Below, in pieces: positions 7,569-62,951 of a stretch of DNA of 64,000 bases. The notes below the pieces were generated by a model. That model was not told the DNA's origin and ran no database searches. It worked only from the letters and a program-made list of their open reading frames with translations. The position numbers and the translations under genes were made by a program. Origin of the DNA: Pleionea litopenaei (GTDB lineage: Bacteria; Pseudomonadota; Gammaproteobacteria; Enterobacterales; Kangiellaceae); NCBI RefSeq assembly GCF_031198435.1, contig NZ_CP133548.1:310001-374000 (forward strand). The letters run 5' to 3'. Position 1 is the first letter of the stretch, and each line of letters opens with the position of its first letter.

Positions 7569-8093
7569 GTGCAGTCAATGATGAAAGAGATTAAACAAAC
7601 TAAGCAACGCGGAGCAGCCTTAATCGTTGGCTTGGTGCTCTTAGTGATCTTAACTGTTTTAGGCGTCTGGGCAGTAAAAAACTCCAGTATGCAGGAGCTA
7701 GTCGCTAGCAACGTGCATCAAAGTAACTGGGTCTTCAATGCCGCCGATGCGGGTGTTGGTGCCTTTACCGAAATGGCGAACGCCGGCAACGATGTTGGCG
7801 ATCCCACTCATATTTTATTTCGCGCACGCGTCAACGGAAACGTTAACTTTTGTGTCGACGAAAACGGAAATGAAGCTGGCTGTAACGATACGTTTATCGA
7901 CGGAAAGGCCGCGCAAGTACAAGTGAATGTTGAAAAGAAGGGCTGTGTTCAGCAGCTGTGTTTCGGCTATAGCCTCGGATCCGATAAGGGTGGGGTTAAG
8001 TGCCTAGTTTACGAAGTTGACTCTACAGGTGACGGTATGGGTGTCACTGAGCAGGTAGAGTGGTGGGCTTATCAGATTTCAGCACAATGTTAA
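7569..8093 (+). CDS. pilX: Minor pilin PilX
   Basis: PilX-family protein; the N-terminus QRGAALIVGLVLLVILTVLGVWA is the PilX_N pattern, and NVHQSNWVFNAADAGV is the conserved segment after the helix. Like other PilX proteins it lacks the canonical Glu5. I place the start at the GTG at 7569 directly after the pilW stop; the ATGs at 7578 and 7581 are equally possible. Length 174 residues. Several cysteines in the C-terminal half suggest a disulfide-stabilised head. Confidence 0.85.
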   Translation: MQSMMKEIKQTKQRGAALIVGLVLLVILTVLGVWAVKNSSMQELVASNVHQSNWVFNAADAGVGAFTEMANAGNDVGDPTHILFRARVNGNVNFCVDENGNEAGCNDTFIDGKAAQVQVNVEKKGCVQQLCFGYSLGSDKGGVKCLVYEVDSTGDGMGVTEQVEWWAYQISAQC

Positions 8094-49293: not shown

Positions 49294-49369
49294 GGGTCGT
49301 TAGCTCAGTCGGTAGAGCAGTTGACTTTTAATCAATTGGTCGCAGGTTCGAATCCTGCACGACCCACCA
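49294..49369 (+). tRNA. tRNA-Lys (anticodon TTT)
   Basis: 76-base tRNA with encoded CCA. Acceptor GGGTCGT pairs with ACGACCC; D-arm GCTCAGTCGGTAGAGC; anticodon loop CTTTTAA with TTT at 49327-49329; T-arm GCAGGTTCGAATCCTGC. It is almost identical to E. coli tRNA-Lys. Its 3' end is repeated in the tandem array behind it. Confidence 0.97.
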
Positions 49370-49775
49370 AATTCTGAGAAGGCCGCTTATCAAAGCGGCC
49401 TTTTTGTTTTTAGGGTGCTGCTAACGATTAACGTTGGTGTTAAAGCGACGAGTCGCAGGCCGGAATGCCGGACCATCGAATCTTGCACGACCCACCAAAT
49501 TCTGAGAAGGCCGCTTATTGAAGCGGCCTTTTTGTTTTTAGGAAACGGTAATGATTAACGTTGGTGTTAAAGCGACGGGTCGCAGGCCGGAATGCCGGAC
49601 CATCGAATTCTGCACGACCCACCAAATTCTGAAAAGGCCGCTTATTGAAGCGGCCTTTTTGCTTTTAGGGAACGGCTAATGATTAACGTTGGTGTTAAAG
49701 CGACGGGTCGCAGGCCGGAATGCCGGACTATCTAATCCTGCACGACCCACCAAATTCTGAAAAGGCCGCTTATCA
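49361..49775 (+). repeat. Tandem tRNA-end/terminator repeats (about 3.3 copies of 127-128 bp)
   Basis: The string GACCCACCAAATTCTG recurs at 49361, 49489, 49616 and 49744. Each unit has the last bases of tRNA-Lys, a GGCCGCTT/AAGCGGCC terminator, a spacer with GATTAACGTTGGTGTTAAAG, and a broken T-arm (GTCGCAGGCCGGAATGCCGG). The last copy loses the right arm of its hairpin near 49770. The remnants cannot fold as tRNAs. The layout resembles the rtT repeats behind E. coli tyrT. Confidence 0.88.
49381..49405 (+). terminator. Rho-independent terminator of tRNA-Lys
   Basis: GGCCGCTT-ATCA-AAGCGGCC followed by TTTTTGTTTTT. Repeated at 49509-49533 and 49636-49660 in the tandem array. Confidence 0.9.
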
Positions 49776-49971
49776 AATTGGTTTCAAAAGCATCTCAAGC
49801 TTCAATACTTTGAATCCGTTAAGCAACGGGGCATATTTAATCTAAGCATTTTTTCTTAAAGATGTCCTCATATATTTAATATAGTAAAATCGACATTGAC
49901 TCATGTTCGAATGAACAAGAGAGGAATGACGGCTGTGCAGTCTTCGATATATGAAATGGAGGAAGTAAATC

Positions 49972-50334
49972 TTGACTGAGAAAAAATCAAGTGTTGATGA
50001 TGCGTTGGGTGCAATTCAAAAGTCTTATCTAGGAAATTTACTGTTTGGAGAGTTTTCATTCAAATTTTTTAAATTGCTTTTTCTAGGGAGCTTTATATTT
50101 TACTTTATTAGCATTCTAATCGTGTTTATTCATCAAGAGTTACAAATTGTATTGATGTTTATGTTTTTTGTTGGGGTACTTTTTATTTCTGTTGCCAGCT
50201 TTTTCTCAGAAAAAGTCAAAAGTAGAATACTTGTCAGTGATTATGATTTTCAGAAAGCAAAGCTAGGGTTGGGGCTTTTAATTTATTCGTCAGGTTTAGC
50301 AGTTGCGGGATTGACGTTGAGATGGATTTTTTAG
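49972..50334 (+). CDS. Small membrane protein of unknown function (island)
   Basis: 120 residues, start TTG at 49972 with a strong GGAGGA ribosome binding site eight bases away. About three or four hydrophobic segments (FKLLFLGSFIFYFISILIVFI, IVLMFMFFVGVLFISVASFF, LGLLIYSSGLAVAGLTL) separated by short charged loops. Not recognised. A+T-rich relative to the housekeeping genes and flanked by tRNA-end repeats on both sides, so probably acquired. Small membrane proteins of this type can be immunity proteins, but nothing in the sequence proves it. Confidence 0.6.
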   Translation: MTEKKSSVDDALGAIQKSYLGNLLFGEFSFKFFKLLFLGSFIFYFISILIVFIHQELQIVLMFMFFVGVLFISVASFFSEKVKSRILVSDYDFQKAKLGLGLLIYSSGLAVAGLTLRWIF

Positions 50335-50444
50335 GTAAGTTAGATAGTGGTAGTTTTAGGTGTGGTATTTGGTAGTATTACTGAGATGATGTTTTGATAA
50401 TAATAATCAATTCATTCAATATGGTAACTGAAAAACTTCGGCGG

Positions 50445-50515
50445 TGCATACCCACCAAGTTCTGGAAAGACTGCTTAGCAAATCGATCTCAAAGTCATCG
50501 CAAACTTTGATGGTT
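50445..50515 (+). repeat. Degenerate copy of the tRNA-end/terminator module
   Basis: GCATACCCACCAAGTTCTGG and the following AAAGACTGCTTAGCAAATCGATCTCAAAG align by eye with 49738-49795 (GCACGACCCACCAAATTCTG ... GGCCGCTTATCAAATTGGTTTCAAAAG). The hairpin is destroyed. It brackets the small membrane protein gene with the main array. Confidence 0.6.
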
Positions 50516-55409: not shown

Positions 55410-55688
55410 ATGACTTTATTAGATGTTATTACAAGGTTAAGTAGGCTAGATGATGAGCTGACAATCTATGCTAAATTACCTTGGTCAATCACCTCAGACG
55501 TAATTTTGGATTACGAGCCGGAGGAAGGGCGCCTTCCGAGTTCGGCTGTCGATTTAAACATGGAGTATTTTATAGACGTTTATACTGCATTAGACTTTAT
55601 AGACGGATGGCTATCTAACAAGGGGGCTCTTCCTAGCGAAGATAAGGTCTGTGAGAGGCTGATCGAATATGTGATCAATGACGCTTAA
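55410..55688 (+). CDS. Small acidic protein, DUF7716-like
   Basis: 92 residues, soluble, acidic. MTLLDVITRLSRLDDELTIYAKLPWSITSDVILDYEPEEG and FIDGWLSNKGALPSEDKVCERLIEYVINDA match a small family I recall as DUF7716. No strong ribosome binding site. Such genes commonly sit among immunity genes; function is unknown. Confidence 0.6.
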   Translation: MTLLDVITRLSRLDDELTIYAKLPWSITSDVILDYEPEEGRLPSSAVDLNMEYFIDVYTALDFIDGWLSNKGALPSEDKVCERLIEYVINDA

Positions 55689-56043
55689 GCCATTTGGTTT
55701 TAAGTGTTTGATGATTGAGGAATAGCCGATAATGAGTTTCGTTTTGAGGGTATAAATAGCGGTATATTATTGTTTAACTTTAACTGAATTATAACTATGA
55801 AAATTTTCGAGGACACCCATTACTTGTAACATTATTGCGCTTAGATAGGGGGTTAACCAGTTGATAAATATCGTGAATCTCTCGGGTGGATATATTATTA
55901 TTTTCACCTAGCGAAATTAATAGTATTGGCCAATCAAACAGATACCAGTAACCTATTGATTTTTAATTAATTAAGTTCTATATCGGTGAATACGAGTTCA
56001 TTACTTGTGATTTAGTGAATAGAATAAGCTGTTATGAGTTCAT
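55689..56043. other. Gene-poor stretch before the cassette region
   Basis: About 355 A+T-rich bases. GTTAACC occurs at 55853-55859, the same heptamer as the R' box of attC3, but no palindromic arm precedes it. No gene is recognised. Confidence 0.35.
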
Positions 56044-56502
56044 ATGAGCAGCTACGATAAACTTAGACCTTGGACAGAGATAGAGAATTGTGATTGCAAA
56101 GAAATCACATCTATTGTACTTGTGGATATATTGACGGATAACCCAATTCATTGTTTTAATTGCAAAAATGAAATAGATCCGGAATTTTTAAAATTGGATC
56201 AAAAATTGGTTGATGATATTGCGAGTTGGTATGGCGTATTTCAATCACTATACAACTTGTGGTTAAATTCCGGGGAATATGAAGAGTATGCAAAAGAAAA
56301 GCTTACAAATAAAAATAGTCAGGTGAATGTCGAAGGTATGTCTGTTGCAAAAAGACTGTCTGCCTATTACCCGTCGTACTATTGGTGGTTCTCCGACACA
56401 GACGATGGCGAATTAATCTATTGTCCCAACTGCGCTAAGAAACTAGACCCCAATGTCAAGTACGGTACGGGTAAATGTGAGGCCTGCAATGTTGTTGTGT
56501 AA
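56044..56502 (+). CDS. Zinc-ribbon protein, DUF2310-like
   Basis: 152 residues. One CxxC near the middle of the N-terminal half (HCFNCKNEIDPE) and two at the C-terminus (IYCPNCAKKLDP, GKCEACNVVV) suggest zinc binding. VDDIASWYGVFQSLYNLWLNSGEYEEYAKEKL and RLSAYYPSYYWWF resemble the DUF2310 zinc-ribbon family, though this protein is shorter. It ends a few bases before attC1, so it may be the first cassette gene of the array. Confidence 0.6.
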   Translation: MSSYDKLRPWTEIENCDCKEITSIVLVDILTDNPIHCFNCKNEIDPEFLKLDQKLVDDIASWYGVFQSLYNLWLNSGEYEEYAKEKLTNKNSQVNVEGMSVAKRLSAYYPSYYWWFSDTDDGELIYCPNCAKKLDPNVKYGTGKCEACNVVV

Positions 56503-56505
56503 CAC

Positions 56506-56616
56506 TCATAACAAATCGTGCCAGTCGGACAGTTTGTTCCGTGGCTTCTTTTGTGCTGGTTGCTACGCTAGCACAAAACGCCACTCCACAAACTGCCGCT
56601 GCACTCAGCGTTAGGC
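56506..56616 (+). other. Integron attC site 1
   Basis: Starts with a CATAAC R''-type box and ends with GTTAGGC (56610-56616), the R' core site with its G/TT cleavage point. Between them the arms GTGCCAGTCGGACAGTTTGT and the complement of ACAAACTGCCGCTGCAC pair with extra-helical bases, as attC sites do. The inner stem TTTTGTGCT / AGCACAAAA (56549-56557, 56570-56578) closes the loop. About 111 bp. Confidence 0.82.
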
Positions 56617-56630
56617 ACTTAGGAAAACGC

Positions 56631-57317
56631 ATGGAATCGAAAACAGTTTGTAGTTTTTCTGACTTCATATGTGAGATAGAAGAACTTGACGAAACTTCGG
56701 AGCTTATATTGTTTAGAGGGCAATCCGTTCAAGGTAACCTTCTGCCTAGTGTCTGCCGAGAAGCTCCGACAAAGAATACAACTAGATCTGAAAAGGAAAC
56801 ACTGAAAGAGCTCAGAAGAATGGGCGGCGCTCTGGTATCTAATGAGCAGATGTCAGATTGGGATTTGCTTGTAGTAGCTCAGCATTTTGGGTTAAAGACT
56901 CGTTTGCTGGATTGGTCGAGTAATCCTTTGGCTGCTTTGTGGTTCGCTTGCTCAGATTACAGAGAAGGGGACGTATATGTATATGTTCTGTATGCCGATG
57001 AATTTTTGCACAATGCAGAGAAAGGGCCTTTCGATACTGGTGCCACCAGGGTATTTAGACCAACACTGAACAACCCTCGTATTGTTGCGCAGCACGGGTG
57101 GTTCACATCACACAAGTACTCTTCGAAAACCAAAAAATTTGTTGCGCTTGAGAAAAATAAGAAAATGAAGCGTTCCGTTTTTGAAATTCATGTTCCAGAA
57201 AGTTCCAGAAAAACAATGCTTAAAGCTTTGGATAGGCATGGTGTAAATAGCCACACTTTGTTTCCAGATCTTGAAGGGCTATGTAAGTATCTAAATTGGC
57301 GTCACAATGGTGCATAA
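56631..57317 (+). CDS. FRG-domain protein (gene cassette)
   Basis: 228 residues from the ATG at 56631; the upstream in-frame part lies inside attC1. ELILFRGQSVQGNLLPSVCRE carries the F-R-G motif near residue 25, followed by WDLLVVAQHFGLKTRLLDWSSNPLAALWFAC, IVAQHGWFTSHK and HGVNSHTLFPDLEGLCKYL, the normal FRG-domain order (PF08867). The domain occurs in many mobile and defence-related contexts, but its activity is not settled. It sits alone between attC1 and attC2 and its start is 15 bases after the R' box, typical of an integron cassette. Confidence 0.85.
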   Translation: MESKTVCSFSDFICEIEELDETSELILFRGQSVQGNLLPSVCREAPTKNTTRSEKETLKELRRMGGALVSNEQMSDWDLLVVAQHFGLKTRLLDWSSNPLAALWFACSDYREGDVYVYVLYADEFLHNAEKGPFDTGATRVFRPTLNNPRIVAQHGWFTSHKYSSKTKKFVALEKNKKMKRSVFEIHVPESSRKTMLKALDRHGVNSHTLFPDLEGLCKYLNWRHNGA

Positions 57318-57383
57318 CAAAGTGCTGCTACGGAAAATTTACTCGCTGGCGCTCCTAAATTTCCGCAGAGCACGGCGTTATAA
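57312..57383 (+). other. Integron attC site 2
   Basis: GCATAAC (57312-57318) and GTTATAA (57377-57383) form the complementary R''/R' boxes. The arms GTGCTGCTACGGAAAATTTA and TAAATTTCCGCAGAGCAC pair with bulged bases; loop CTCGCTGGCGCTCC. 72 bp, within the normal attC size range. The FRG gene stop overlaps its first bases. Confidence 0.85.
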
Positions 57384-57402
57384 CTAAATCGAGATCAAAG
57401 AA

Positions 57403-57954
57403 TTGTTCAAGAAAAAAGATCCTAATTTAGAGAGGTTGAAAAATCTATTAAGTAAAATAGAGGAAGCAGAAAGTCCTTCCGGGTGGGAGAAAGTGGCTTC
57501 CCCATCTGTCGGAGGCTTAACTGATTTAGGGTTTTCCCGGCAGGGCCCATACTTAATAGTAATTTCAAGCCAAGGTAGAGGGCTTTTTAATTGTGAAACT
57601 GGCGAGAGGGTATCCCGCGATTATGAAGAGTACGGCGACTGGTTTAACGAACGCGACCTTACTTGTAAAGGTATTGGCCCCGTAGAATCGGAGCTTATTC
57701 AAACCTGTGGAATTCACGGGGGAGGACTTCCTCACTCAGGAGCAACAGGTGAGAGCATAGAGGTGCATGCACCCAATTGGCCAGAGTATGACTTATATTT
57801 TTGCTCAGAATATAAGTCCGCCCTAATTGATGGTCATGCTTCCTATTGTAAAAAAATCGATTCAGAACACTTAAGGGCGTACGGGTTTTCGTGGTGCGGT
57901 AACTTTTTAGTTTCAGCAGTTGGTAGTGATTTCAATCTATGGAAAAAGTTATAA
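57403..57954 (+). CDS. Hypothetical cassette-encoded protein, 183 aa
   Basis: 183 residues from a TTG at 57403, the only reasonable start; no ATG is in range. LERLKNLLSKIEEAESPSGWEKVASPSVGGLTDLGFSRQGPYLIVISSQGRGLFNCETGERVSRDYEE suggests a beta-sheet-rich protein of the kind often found in integron arrays, with CGIHGGGLPHSG and several cysteines further on. Not a recognised family. Its stop lies inside attC3, as is normal for cassettes. Confidence 0.65.
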   Translation: MFKKKDPNLERLKNLLSKIEEAESPSGWEKVASPSVGGLTDLGFSRQGPYLIVISSQGRGLFNCETGERVSRDYEEYGDWFNERDLTCKGIGPVESELIQTCGIHGGGLPHSGATGESIEVHAPNWPEYDLYFCSEYKSALIDGHASYCKKIDSEHLRAYGFSWCGNFLVSAVGSDFNLWKKL

Positions 57955-58054
57955 CAAAGCTATCTACCGCACTCCATTTCCGTAACTTGGTTTTTATGCT
58001 GAGTAGCATAAAAATCCAATCAACTACAATTCGCCGGTAATAGCGGCGTTAACC
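57949..58054 (+). other. Integron attC site 3
   Basis: TTATAAC at the left and GTTAACC (58048-58054) at the right. GCTATCTACCG pairs with CGGTAATAGC; the inner stem TTTTTATGCT / AGCATAAAAA (57991-58000, 58005-58014) is perfect. About 106 bp. It closes the second cassette. Confidence 0.78.
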
Positions 58055-58104
58055 GACATTAAACTTTCCACTGAGCCTACAAGAACAGTCTCTTTAAACT
58101 CGAT

Positions 58105-58143
58105 AAAAAGAGTCCCAAAAGGGAACAAAACATACTCTTTTTT
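58105..58143 (+). terminator. Possible terminator behind the cassette array
   Basis: AAAAAGAGT pairs with ACTCTTTTT around a nested TCCC-AAAA-GGGA stem, ending in a T-run. Confidence 0.45.
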
Positions 58144-58310
58144 AACAATCCGCTTCTGCTAGTCATTACTACTCTAACGGAGATCTCTCGACTGCGCTTG
58201 AGACGACATATTTTGGTGTCGGCTTTTGGCGTTTGCAGAATTAAGTTGTACGATTATGTCAAACTCTTAACCCTAAATTGCCAGGTCGAGTTTGAGCTAC
58301 TACATAAAAT

Positions 58311-58353
58311 CCACCAAATACTAAAAAGGCCGCTTATCAAAGCGGCCTTTTAT
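58311..58353. repeat. Distant copy of the tRNA-Lys end/terminator module
   Basis: CCACCAAATACTAAAAAGGC and the following CGCTTATCAAAGCGGCCTTTTAT match the sequence straight behind the tRNA (49363-49405) with few changes. It keeps the full GGCCGCTT/AAGCGGCC hairpin and marks the right edge of the island. It can also act as terminator for both strands. Confidence 0.8.
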
Positions 58354-58366
58354 AGGTTTTAATGAC

Positions 58367-59251
58367 TCACTTTTGTTTCTTTAGCTCTTCCATAAACTCA
58401 ACGGCGAGCTTCCCAATCATTTCTGGGTTTTCTTGCAGTTCTTTCTCGAATTCTTCTTGGGCTTCTTGAGCATTCACAATTCTGATTGCTTTAACCAGTG
58501 CAAAGATTACCCAAAAGCCGATACTGATGCCAAAACTGATCCAAAATCCGAAGAAATACCAACCAACAAGCGTAGTGATAATTAATCCAATGATGGAAAA
58601 GATAATAGTCAGGAGTATGCGATATCCGGATTCTTCATCTGGATCAATCTTTCCACCGACTCTGTCGAAAAACACTTGAGCTATCTTACTGTTCTCTGTG
58701 TCAAGAATGATCAACTCAAGGCATTGATCAACAGCGGGCAAAGAAACAAAGTTTATTTTGAAGTACTTACCAAATAGTTGATTAACAAACTCAAAATACT
58801 CTTCTGCCACCCAATCACTGCTTTGCTTCCAAGTCTTTGAATGCTTTTTTCCGTCAATTATGCAGGATAAGCTAGCTTGCTCATTGTCATAATTGTAGCT
58901 TGAGCGAATTTCAGACACTTTATCATTGAGGTCGGCATGAGTAACGAAGTGAATAAATAATCCCGCATAATCCTCTGGATTTTCAATACATTCACAATCA
59001 AACGTTAATATCTTCTTCGGGGCGTGTAATGCAATTTGCTCCGGTAGCTCTTCAACTTCAAGCGATTCGTCGAGTGTATCTGGCAAGAAGCCATTCTCTT
59101 GTAAAATAGGAATGAGCTTCTCGCTTTGGCTCTCGGTTTCGCTCAAGCACATGCCTTCGACCATATCATTAATAAATGATGACAACACAATCGTATCCTT
59201 TTTTAATAAATAACAATCCAATACATTTGACAGTAATATTGATACTGTCAT
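58367..59251 (-). CDS. Membrane protein of unknown function, 294 aa
   Basis: 294 residues. A soluble N-terminal domain of about 215 residues (with LDCYLLKKDTIVLSSFINDMVEGM and a CIIDGKKHSKTWKQSSDWVAEEYFEFVNQL segment) is followed by two adjacent membrane helices (ILLTIIFSIIGLIITTLVGWYFFG and WISFGISIGFWVIFALVKAI) and a charged helical tail (AQEAQEEFEKELQENPEMIG). Not recognised. It is read leftwards toward the island boundary repeat. Confidence 0.6.
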   Translation of the reverse strand: MTVSILLSNVLDCYLLKKDTIVLSSFINDMVEGMCLSETESQSEKLIPILQENGFLPDTLDESLEVEELPEQIALHAPKKILTFDCECIENPEDYAGLFIHFVTHADLNDKVSEIRSSYNYDNEQASLSCIIDGKKHSKTWKQSSDWVAEEYFEFVNQLFGKYFKINFVSLPAVDQCLELIILDTENSKIAQVFFDRVGGKIDPDEESGYRILLTIIFSIIGLIITTLVGWYFFGFWISFGISIGFWVIFALVKAIRIVNAQEAQEEFEKELQENPEMIGKLAVEFMEELKKQK

Positions 59252-59489: not shown

Positions 59490-59969
59490 ATGATAAAACT
59501 TAAGCCGTCATCAGCAAAGGTACAGTCGTTTCTCGCCGAGCGTGGCCAAGAGTTTATTGTTCAGCAAATGCCTGCATCGACGCGAACGGCGAAAGACGCT
59601 GCAGAAGCGATTGGTTGTCGTGTTGAGCAAATTGCAAAATCCTTAATTTTTAAAGATGATGAATCAAAGAGTGCAGTATTGATTATTGCGTCAGGTAGCA
59701 ATCAAGTATCATTAGAGAAAGTCAAAGAGCAAACGGGAATGCAACTAGGGAAAGCCGATGCAGATTTTGTTCGAGAAAAGACCGGATTCGCGATTGGCGG
59801 CGTACCTCCCGTCGCTCATACTACTGAAATCATTACTCTGCTTGATCAAGATCTGCAACAATTCAACGAGATTTGGGCCGCTGCCGGTACACCTAATTCG
59901 GTATTTAAGTTGACTCCCGAGCAGTTGGGAGATCTCACGCATGGTCGGTGGTTAGACATTAAAAAATGA
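59490..59969 (+). CDS. YbaK/EbsC-family aminoacyl-tRNA deacylase
   Basis: 159 residues of the YbaK/ProX-like editing domain, which hydrolyses mischarged tRNAs such as Ala- or Cys-tRNA-Pro. TRTAKDAAEAIGCRVEQIAKSLIFK contains the catalytic Lys motif, then LIIASGSNQVSLEKV, FAIGGVPPVAHT and the C-terminal AAGTPNSVFKLTPEQL. Which mischarged tRNA it clears cannot be told by eye. AAGGGAT ribosome binding site. Confidence 0.9.
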   Translation: MIKLKPSSAKVQSFLAERGQEFIVQQMPASTRTAKDAAEAIGCRVEQIAKSLIFKDDESKSAVLIIASGSNQVSLEKVKEQTGMQLGKADADFVREKTGFAIGGVPPVAHTTEIITLLDQDLQQFNEIWAAAGTPNSVFKLTPEQLGDLTHGRWLDIKK

Positions 59970-61737: not shown

Positions 61738-62944
61738 TGAATTAGTCTCGACTTAATCTGACACATCAACTTGAAAAAGTGAGAGTTACCCGTTTTGATT
61801 AAAGGTGTCGAATCTTTAAATCAGAACGTTATAGAGGTAACTCTCATGCTACATACTAACAACCCAATCATAAAACACAAAGCTGGTTTACTTAACTTAG
61901 CAGAAGAACTCGGGAACGTATCGAAAGCCTGTAAGGTAATGGGCGTATCACGAGATACATTTTATCGCTATCAAGAACTGGTCGAAGAAGGCGGTATCGA
62001 TGCCCTTATCAGCAAGAGCCGTCGCAACCCAAATGTTAAAAATCGCGTTGATGAAGCCACAGAAACAGCGGTTATCAATTATGCCATTGAGTTTCCGGCA
62101 CACGGCCAACACCGAACCAGTAACGAGTTGCGAAAGAAAGGAGTCTTTGTATCAGGGAGCGGTGTCCGGTCGATATGGCTCAGGCATGACCTAGAAAACT
62201 TTAAGAAGCGCTTGAAGGCACTGGAAGATAAGGTTGCTAAAGAGGGCATCATACTGACCGATAGCCAAATAGCTGCACTTGAGAAGAAGAGAAAATGATG
62301 ATGAAGCCTGTGGTGAGATTGAAACAGCTCACCCTGGCTACTTAGGCTCACAAGATACCTTTTATGTCGGTAACCTAAAGGGCGTTGGACGAATTTACCA
62401 ACAAACCTTCATCGACACTTACAGCAAAGTTGCCTTTGCCAAACTCTACACCACAAAAACACCTATTACCGCAGCCGACATACTTAATGACAAAGTGCTA
62501 CCTTACTTCCAGCAACATGAGTTACCCATGTTGCGAGTATTAACGGATCGCGGCACTGAGTATTGTGGAAAAGTTGAACATCACGACTATCAGCTGTATT
62601 TAGCAATCAATGACATCGAGCATACAAAGACTAAAGCAATGTCACCGCAAACCAATGGTATCTGCGAACGATTCCATAAAACGATATTGAACGAGTTCTA
62701 CCAGGTTACATTTCGGAAGAAATTATACAGTTCACTGGATGAGCTTCAAAAGGATCTGGACGAATGGATAGTTTACTACAATAATGAACGCACCCATCAA
62801 GGAAAAATGTGTTGTGGACGAACGCCCAATGAAACATTAATTGATGGTAAGAGAATTTGGGCTGACAAAAATCTAGCTCAAATCTAAACTGACAGACACC
62901 AATTGAAAAACGGGTAACTGTCAGATTAAGTCTGAGCTAGTACA
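61738..62944 (+). mobile_element. IS481-family insertion sequence, copy 3 (1207 bp)
   Basis: Same ends as copies 1 and 2. Flanked by gattatg at 61731-61737 and 62945-62951. It is one base longer because of an inserted G at 62291. Inserted upstream of the CPBP protease gene without splitting a reading frame. Confidence 0.95.
61846..62887 (+). pseudogene. IS481-family transposase, frameshifted (copy 3)
   Basis: Same sequence as copies 1 and 2 except an extra G at 62291 in the run after LEKK, which shifts the frame. The first part stops at 62298, and the catalytic part (DDEACGEIETAHPG to the end) continues in another frame to 62887. The HTH piece alone cannot catalyse transposition. Inactive unless a programmed shift restores it, which I think unlikely because the other copies are intact without one. 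Confidence 0.88.
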
Positions 62945-62951
62945 GATTATG

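Follow-up and report, generated by a model that had tools for sequence, protein, structure and literature searches.

A gene cassette array in Pleionea litopenaei is very probably an integron without its integrase gene

The locus lies in a 64-kb stretch of the Pleionea litopenaei chromosome, referred to below as the window, and consists of three cassettes, each made up of a gene followed by its own attC site (Table 1). The original prediction had described two co-oriented cassette genes framed by three attC sites, and had suspected that the Zn-ribbon gene in front of them was an earlier cassette. This guess was right, as attC1 belongs to the Zn-ribbon gene; the layout of attC-bounded genes in one direction stands, with three cassettes instead of two.

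Table 1. Features at the cassette array (positions in the window)
Feature	Position	Strand	Description
5' segment	55830..56031	+	Homologous to about -201 to +3 of the crossover in other clusters
attI-like core, TTGTGATTTAGTGAATAGAATAAGCTG^TTA	56005..56034	+	Crossover between 56031 and 56032
Cassette 1 gene	56044..56502	+	152 aa, Zn-ribbon, DUF2310-like; Pfam PF10071 26.5 bits (cut-off 25)
attC1	56506-56616	+	Long type; R3 36.0 bits, E 1.3e-6; R2 16.9 bits, E 0.038
Cassette 2 gene	56631..57317	+	228 aa, FRG domain; PADLOC PDC-S15 candidate defence protein
attC2	57312-57383	+	Short type; R2 57.6 bits, E 5.7e-13; R3 32.3 bits
Cassette 3 gene	57403..57954	+	183 aa, no known family; several relatives are cassettes
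attC3	57949-58054	+	Long type, terminal; R3 61.1 bits, E 7e-13; R2 23.5 bits
TE2	58048..58135	+	Array-end sequence of about 88 bp, begins at the attC3 R' box
TE1	58218..58304	+	Array-end sequence of about 90 bp, 164 bp after attC3
tRNA-Lys downstream terminator copy	58311..58351	+	Adjoins TE1

Covariance models of attC were built from candidates at integron loci in related genomes and on plasmids, with every site of the window and of this genome kept out of the training set. Model R2 was trained on 22 short attC, taken from plasmids and other genomes, and model R3 on 14 long attC, none from this genome. Arm co-variation in the short-site alignment was 0.464, compared with 0.118 in shuffles and 0.058-0.160 in slid structures. 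R2 matched exactly three sites in the window at E <= 10, namely attC1, attC2 and attC3, and R3 matched the same three plus one extra at E 3.4; below E 1, neither model matched anything else in the 64 kb. attC1 was weak with R2, not reaching E 1 in the whole-genome search, and clear with R3. All three sites carry R''/R' boxes in an imperfect palindrome that fits the covariance models, and their bottom-strand folds beat 200 of 200 dinucleotide shuffles (z -4.1, -3.0 and -3.5 for attC1, attC2 and attC3, respectively). These results bear out the three attC predicted from the letters alone, for which a covariance-model check had been proposed. The predicted bottom-strand attC shape held in part: the minimum-energy fold of attC3 closed the central hairpin alone, and the top-strand folds were about equally strong (z -4.3, -1.6 and -5.2, in the same order), so that folding alone does not single out a strand. 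In addition, attC2 was 95.5% identical over 67 bp to an attC of the IncC plasmid pKAZ2 and 92.9% identical over 70 bp to an attC of a Catenovulum plasmid.

The FRG domain proposed for cassette 2 was confirmed by Pfam (E 1.1e-22). Like the FRG / PDC-S15 defence candidates, the protein matches the best PADLOC PDC-S15 profile over residues 1-226 (E 1.7e-90); unlike them, it is an integron cassette here. Frg domains have been placed in the ADP-ribosyltransferase superfamily, with a possible NADase action in prokaryotic immunity (PMC9503650). The product of the cassette is probably a single-gene anti-phage effector of this superfamily, perhaps an NADase. Stores of anti-phage genes in integrons are known (Darracq 2025, Getz 2025 and Kieffer 2025, as cited in PMC12444791). 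FRG matches were present in 266 plasmid records, and one of six FRG loci elsewhere had an attC: on the Shewanella baltica plasmid pS18501 (L207), the FRG gene is followed by an attC (R2 30.1 bits) and then by restriction-modification genes, and no attC was found at L205, L206, L209, L070 and L071.

For the cassette 1 protein, no relative was found within the plasmid collection searched. The 183-residue protein of cassette 3 is, as predicted, of no known family: Pfam matched none of the nine members of its family, all of which share invariant GGGLP and GFSW motifs. Its structural model is beta-rich (pLDDT 79.7); the top Foldseek match had a TM of 0.38, the others among the matches listed were mostly beta-propellers, and these matches are too weak for a fold to be named. 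Neither the 183-aa protein nor the FRG protein had a reliable match to any solved structure. An attC (R2 or R3) stands right after the gene in three of the eight long relatives (L016-L023), found in Stutzerimonas zhaodongensis (L017, within a run of attC), Pseudomonas alcaliphila (L018) and Marinifaba aquimaris (L023); neither model found one after the other five, nor at L208. Moreover, a 69% identical copy of the gene precedes an attC in the integrase-less cluster at 1.67 Mb of the same genome.

We then compared the DNA in front of the array with that of other clusters, in this genome (G000; 4.42 Mb, 3 contigs) and in four sister genomes of the genus (G001-G004). Directly 5' of the first cassette is an attI-like site scoring 41.0 bits with a matrix built from seven intI-adjacent sites only; the next best site in the window scored 4.2 bits, and the maxima of ten shuffled windows were 2.0-13.0 bits. 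The junction thus carries a predicted attI next to the first cassette, as in a complete integron, and does not have the form of an attG, an insertion point that is neither attI nor attC. Within the 360 bp upstream of the first cassette, the last 28-39 bp match intI-attI regions at several intI loci, and matches of 176-204 bp occur at two places, before the cassettes at G000:C1:4091k and in G003:C63. These upstream matches stop at the crossover G^TT, as is required if different cassettes follow. The 5' segment shows 72.9% identity over 203 bp to the 4091k copy, and 77.7% over 202 bp and 78.2% over 174 bp to the G003:C63 copies, a divergence of 22-27%. Its left limit lies at -201 to -205 in the window, at 4091k and in one G003 copy; among the other integrase-less clusters it lies at -210 to -216 in several, at -171 in another, and closer in at 95k (-106), 3389k (-53) and the third G003 site (about -60 to -70), while contig ends set the limit in two further clusters. 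A common left end thus appears to be a property of some copies, not of all. The distance from the crossover to the start of intI is 265 and 274 bp at two intI loci. The 14 bases round the window crossover, AGAATAAGCTG^TTA, are identical to the attI of IntA, the complete integrase of this genome. The upstream half of the window site, AGTGAATAG, differs from that of IntA, ACTAAAAAG, which makes cutting by IntA a guess. A crude scan of 55650-56043 gave no sigma-70-type promoter match in the 5' segment.

As had been predicted, the window carries no intI: tblastn of IntA against the 64 kb gave nothing below E 0.83, and no remnant was found. The locus therefore lacks the functional intI of a complete integron and, with three attC, fits the IntegronFinder definition of a CALIN (at least two attC, no intI near). 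The label originally given to the locus is correct to this extent, although an attI-like site with its upstream segment is present as well.

A genome-wide search for intI and further arrays, also proposed with the original prediction, revealed two intI over the TIGR02249 cut-off; in 14 control genomes none was found, and in a family survey 20 of 40 genomes had intI over the cut-off. IntA (C1:1007951-1008925) is a complete protein of 324 aa covering profile positions 4-315 of 315, and at about 0.64 Mb it is the nearest intI to the window cluster. It contains the motif TTQIYTH, whose tyrosine is the catalytic one of tyrosine recombinases. IntB (C1:1998992-1999912) ends with ...DVRTTVLAQT before this motif, at the point where an IS copy begins. 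The whole-genome search with R2 found at least 24 attC at E <= 1 in at least nine clusters, two with intI and seven without (including the window); as 150 of 523 candidates were scored, clusters may have been missed.

An attI-like start was found in five of these seven integrase-less clusters, being of a first type in the window, 4091k and 95k clusters and of a second type at 1.673 Mb and 3389k; at 1388k and 1707k no attI-like site was found. The 95k site resembles that of IntB (82.9% over 111 bp). The first-type matrix gave second-type sites 9.6-16.3 bits, where shuffles reached up to 13.0; these sites were called on their own shared upstream segments. The second-type site at 1.673 Mb stands beside a 48-aa intI fragment (L122; 7392 (-) and 7639-7782 (+), respectively), which is probably a third, decayed integrase of the genome. 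attC at E <= 0.01 were present in all five genomes of the genus, and attI-like sites were found in sister genomes at G002:C10, C6 and C3, G003:C63 (three) and G004:C119 and C138. None was found in the fetched stretches, several of which end at contig ends, of G001:C24, C25 and C22, G002:C9, C17 and C2, G003:C49 and C66, and G004:C63, C54 and C69. The three sites in G003:C63 (L210) lie within 4 kb (4383, 5682 and 8249 (-)) with cassettes between them, an arrangement of tandem platforms. IS110-like transposases lie near attC at L010, L012, L023 and L125, as attC-targeting IS do; the family is annotated in L012 only and was assigned by reading in the others.

The 3' ends of the arrays also recur. 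Three more copies of TE2 were found, all in G004 (92%, 88% and 89%), and all four copies start at an attC R' box and are followed by unrelated DNA, the copy at G004:C13 with only 17 bp of contig before it. TE1 likewise follows the terminal attC at G000:C1:4094k, at G004:C119 and, with a short interruption, at the IntA locus; the first three copies detected besides that of the window were picked up by a plain blast of the window right flank and were not selected for attC. Among the matches in the genus (E <= 1, starting at model position 5 or before, a count that leaves out four weaker matches starting at positions 7-10), six of eight lie 3' of a terminal attC, namely the window copy, those at the IntA locus, 4094k and G004:C119, and two weak ones at G002:C2 and 1388k. 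At 1450922 and G002:C6, R2 found no attC in the fetched stretch, and shorter TE1 matches occur away from attC. In another family, TE1 is present 97 bp after an attC in G071, and in G039, G130 and G190 no attC stands beside it. When the sequences 3' of 75 attC were compared (37 array-terminal and 38 internal, assigned by position in the fetched stretch, where contig ends may fake some terminal ones), all six shared pairs joined terminal sites.

We also considered TE1 and TE2 as transposon ends and as RNAs, and rejected both. At ten loci there was no convincing inverted partner upstream, the partners seen being matches with three or four mismatches, as arise by chance, and known IS ends. Neither sequence had a stable fold relative to shuffles, and Rfam gave only tRNA over threshold and otherwise weak sub-threshold matches. 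The IS at 61.8-62.95 kb has an inverted repeat similar to the right end of TE1, so that TE1 may include an old IS end. This IS (window 61795-62950) has its transposase in two overlapping frames and about a dozen near-identical copies in the genome; the copy at the end of IntB encodes its transposase in a single frame of 363 aa.

On the left of the cluster, in the region 49294-50492, a tRNA-Lys(ttt) is followed by tandem degenerate copies, of about 128 bp, of its 3' end and terminator. Together with the terminator copy next to TE1, these repeats possibly mark an island with its right border near TE1. The right-hand genes (58367-59251 and 59490-59969) had no match in the four sister genomes, which leaves no empty locus for comparison. 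Between 51975 and 55688 there is a row of small co-oriented genes, with ankyrin, SUKH (SMI1/KNR4), a sub-threshold Imm26 match and unknowns, which looks like an immunity-gene cluster; R2 with filters off found no attC below E 1 in this row.

In integrons, IntI joins the folded bottom strand of attC to attI, so that the cassettes come to follow attI one after another, all pointing the same way. The platform at this locus comprises a 5' segment of about 200 bp ending in an attI-like site, three cassettes in the same direction, and short recurrent 3'-end sequences. This anatomy fits integron biology and argues that an integron integrase, encoded here once or acting in trans, put the cassettes here. 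We therefore regard it as very probable that the locus is an integron lacking only its integrase gene, perhaps usable in trans. The cassettes would have been placed by IntA, the only complete integrase candidate at present, or by a lost integrase, through recombination of the folded attC bottom strand with attI. Because the 14 crossover bases are the same as in the attI of IntA, an integrase acting in trans may still excise or add cassettes. However, the divergence of the 5' segment is what an old, possibly silent platform would show, and the crude scan gave no sigma-70-type match to point to a cassette promoter.

Whether such a platform is dead is evenly balanced. The locus could be the relic of an ordinary integron whose intI was deleted, leaving attI and cassettes to decay. 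The 1.67 Mb cluster, with an intI fragment beside its attI-like site, shows a path to this state, IntB exemplifies the loss of an integrase, and both the missing promoter match (crude scan) and the varied ends of the other 5' segments, as after separate deletions, agree with it. However, the window contains no intI remnant, the left limits of three copies almost coincide (-201 to -205), and the near identity of attC2 to a plasmid attC favours cassette traffic somewhere.

It is rather unlikely that the clusters are non-autonomous integrons, in which an intI-less attI segment with a fixed 3' end (TE1/TE2) spreads as a unit through genomes of the genus and cassettes are docked in trans, much as non-autonomous transposons rely on a helper transposase. 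The attI segment is about 205 bp long in three copies, and the window, the 4091-4094k cluster and the IntA locus have both the attI end and TE1 in common. This sharing is suggestive of spread as a unit but falls short of proof, given that TE1 is also found with no attC nearby and looks like an IS end; the different end points of other copies of the 5' segment take further weight from the reading. The attI types of the platforms would, on this reading, match different resident or lost integrases: the sites in the window and at 4091k are IntA-like at the crossover, the 95k site is IntB-like, and a second-type site stands beside the intI fragment.

Insertion of the cassettes in trans at a non-attI genomic site (attG) is very improbable. 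This mechanism is documented (Loot et al. 2024, as cited in PMC12444791) and agrees with the absence of a nearby intI, and we inferred it at first. It was dropped once the upstream comparison showed the attI-like site: the first cassette starts at the crossover of the 41.0-bit site, scored with an intI-adjacent matrix, and the 200 bp or so upstream are common to other such places, which largely refutes it. Finally, the possibility that the attC are chance palindromes of AT-rich DNA is refuted, for although a simple motif-plus-fold scan gave 3, 3 and 8 matches in three shuffled windows and 11 in the real one, R2 and R3 match these three sites alone below E 1, and relatives of cassette 3 have attC at the same place.

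The integron without integrase described here can be set beside known systems. Like a sedentary chromosomal integron, it has attI, attC and cassettes in one orientation; unlike one, it has no intI at the locus and only three cassettes. CALINs number in the thousands (2961; PMC9024848); in Shewanella they are present alongside intI (PMC9229058), and about half of the genomes of Xanthomonas contain them (PMC12444791). As with these CALIN / SALIN arrays (attC without integrase), attC-bounded cassettes lie away from intI, several per genome, with intI elsewhere, whereas the window cassettes are preceded by an attI-like site and about 200 bp of 5' DNA. No mention of attI in the CALINs of Shewanella or Xanthomonas was found in the available text of PMC9229058 and PMC12444791. 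The attI-bearing CALIN is nevertheless a kind already known from one earlier case, the Shewanella prophage M16-3, in which a CALIN with its own attI stands beside a complete integron in one element and both arrays start at the same attI type (PMC9892861). Unlike that single CALIN in a prophage, five of seven clusters of one chromosome are concerned here, with two attI types and recurrent array ends. In the accessible part of a mainly open literature, we found no description of attI-bearing integrase-less clusters recurring along one chromosome, or of array ends shared by such clusters.

Clusters of attC without intI are common and are mostly interpreted as arrays in decay or as stray insertions. 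Should many CALINs begin at attI, one integrase would have several docking sites per genome, and cassette capture would not be tied to one place. The pattern found here runs through the chromosome and the genus, and a complete IntA together with short sites makes it immediately open to testing. The locus also adds an integron cassette carrying a candidate anti-phage gene.
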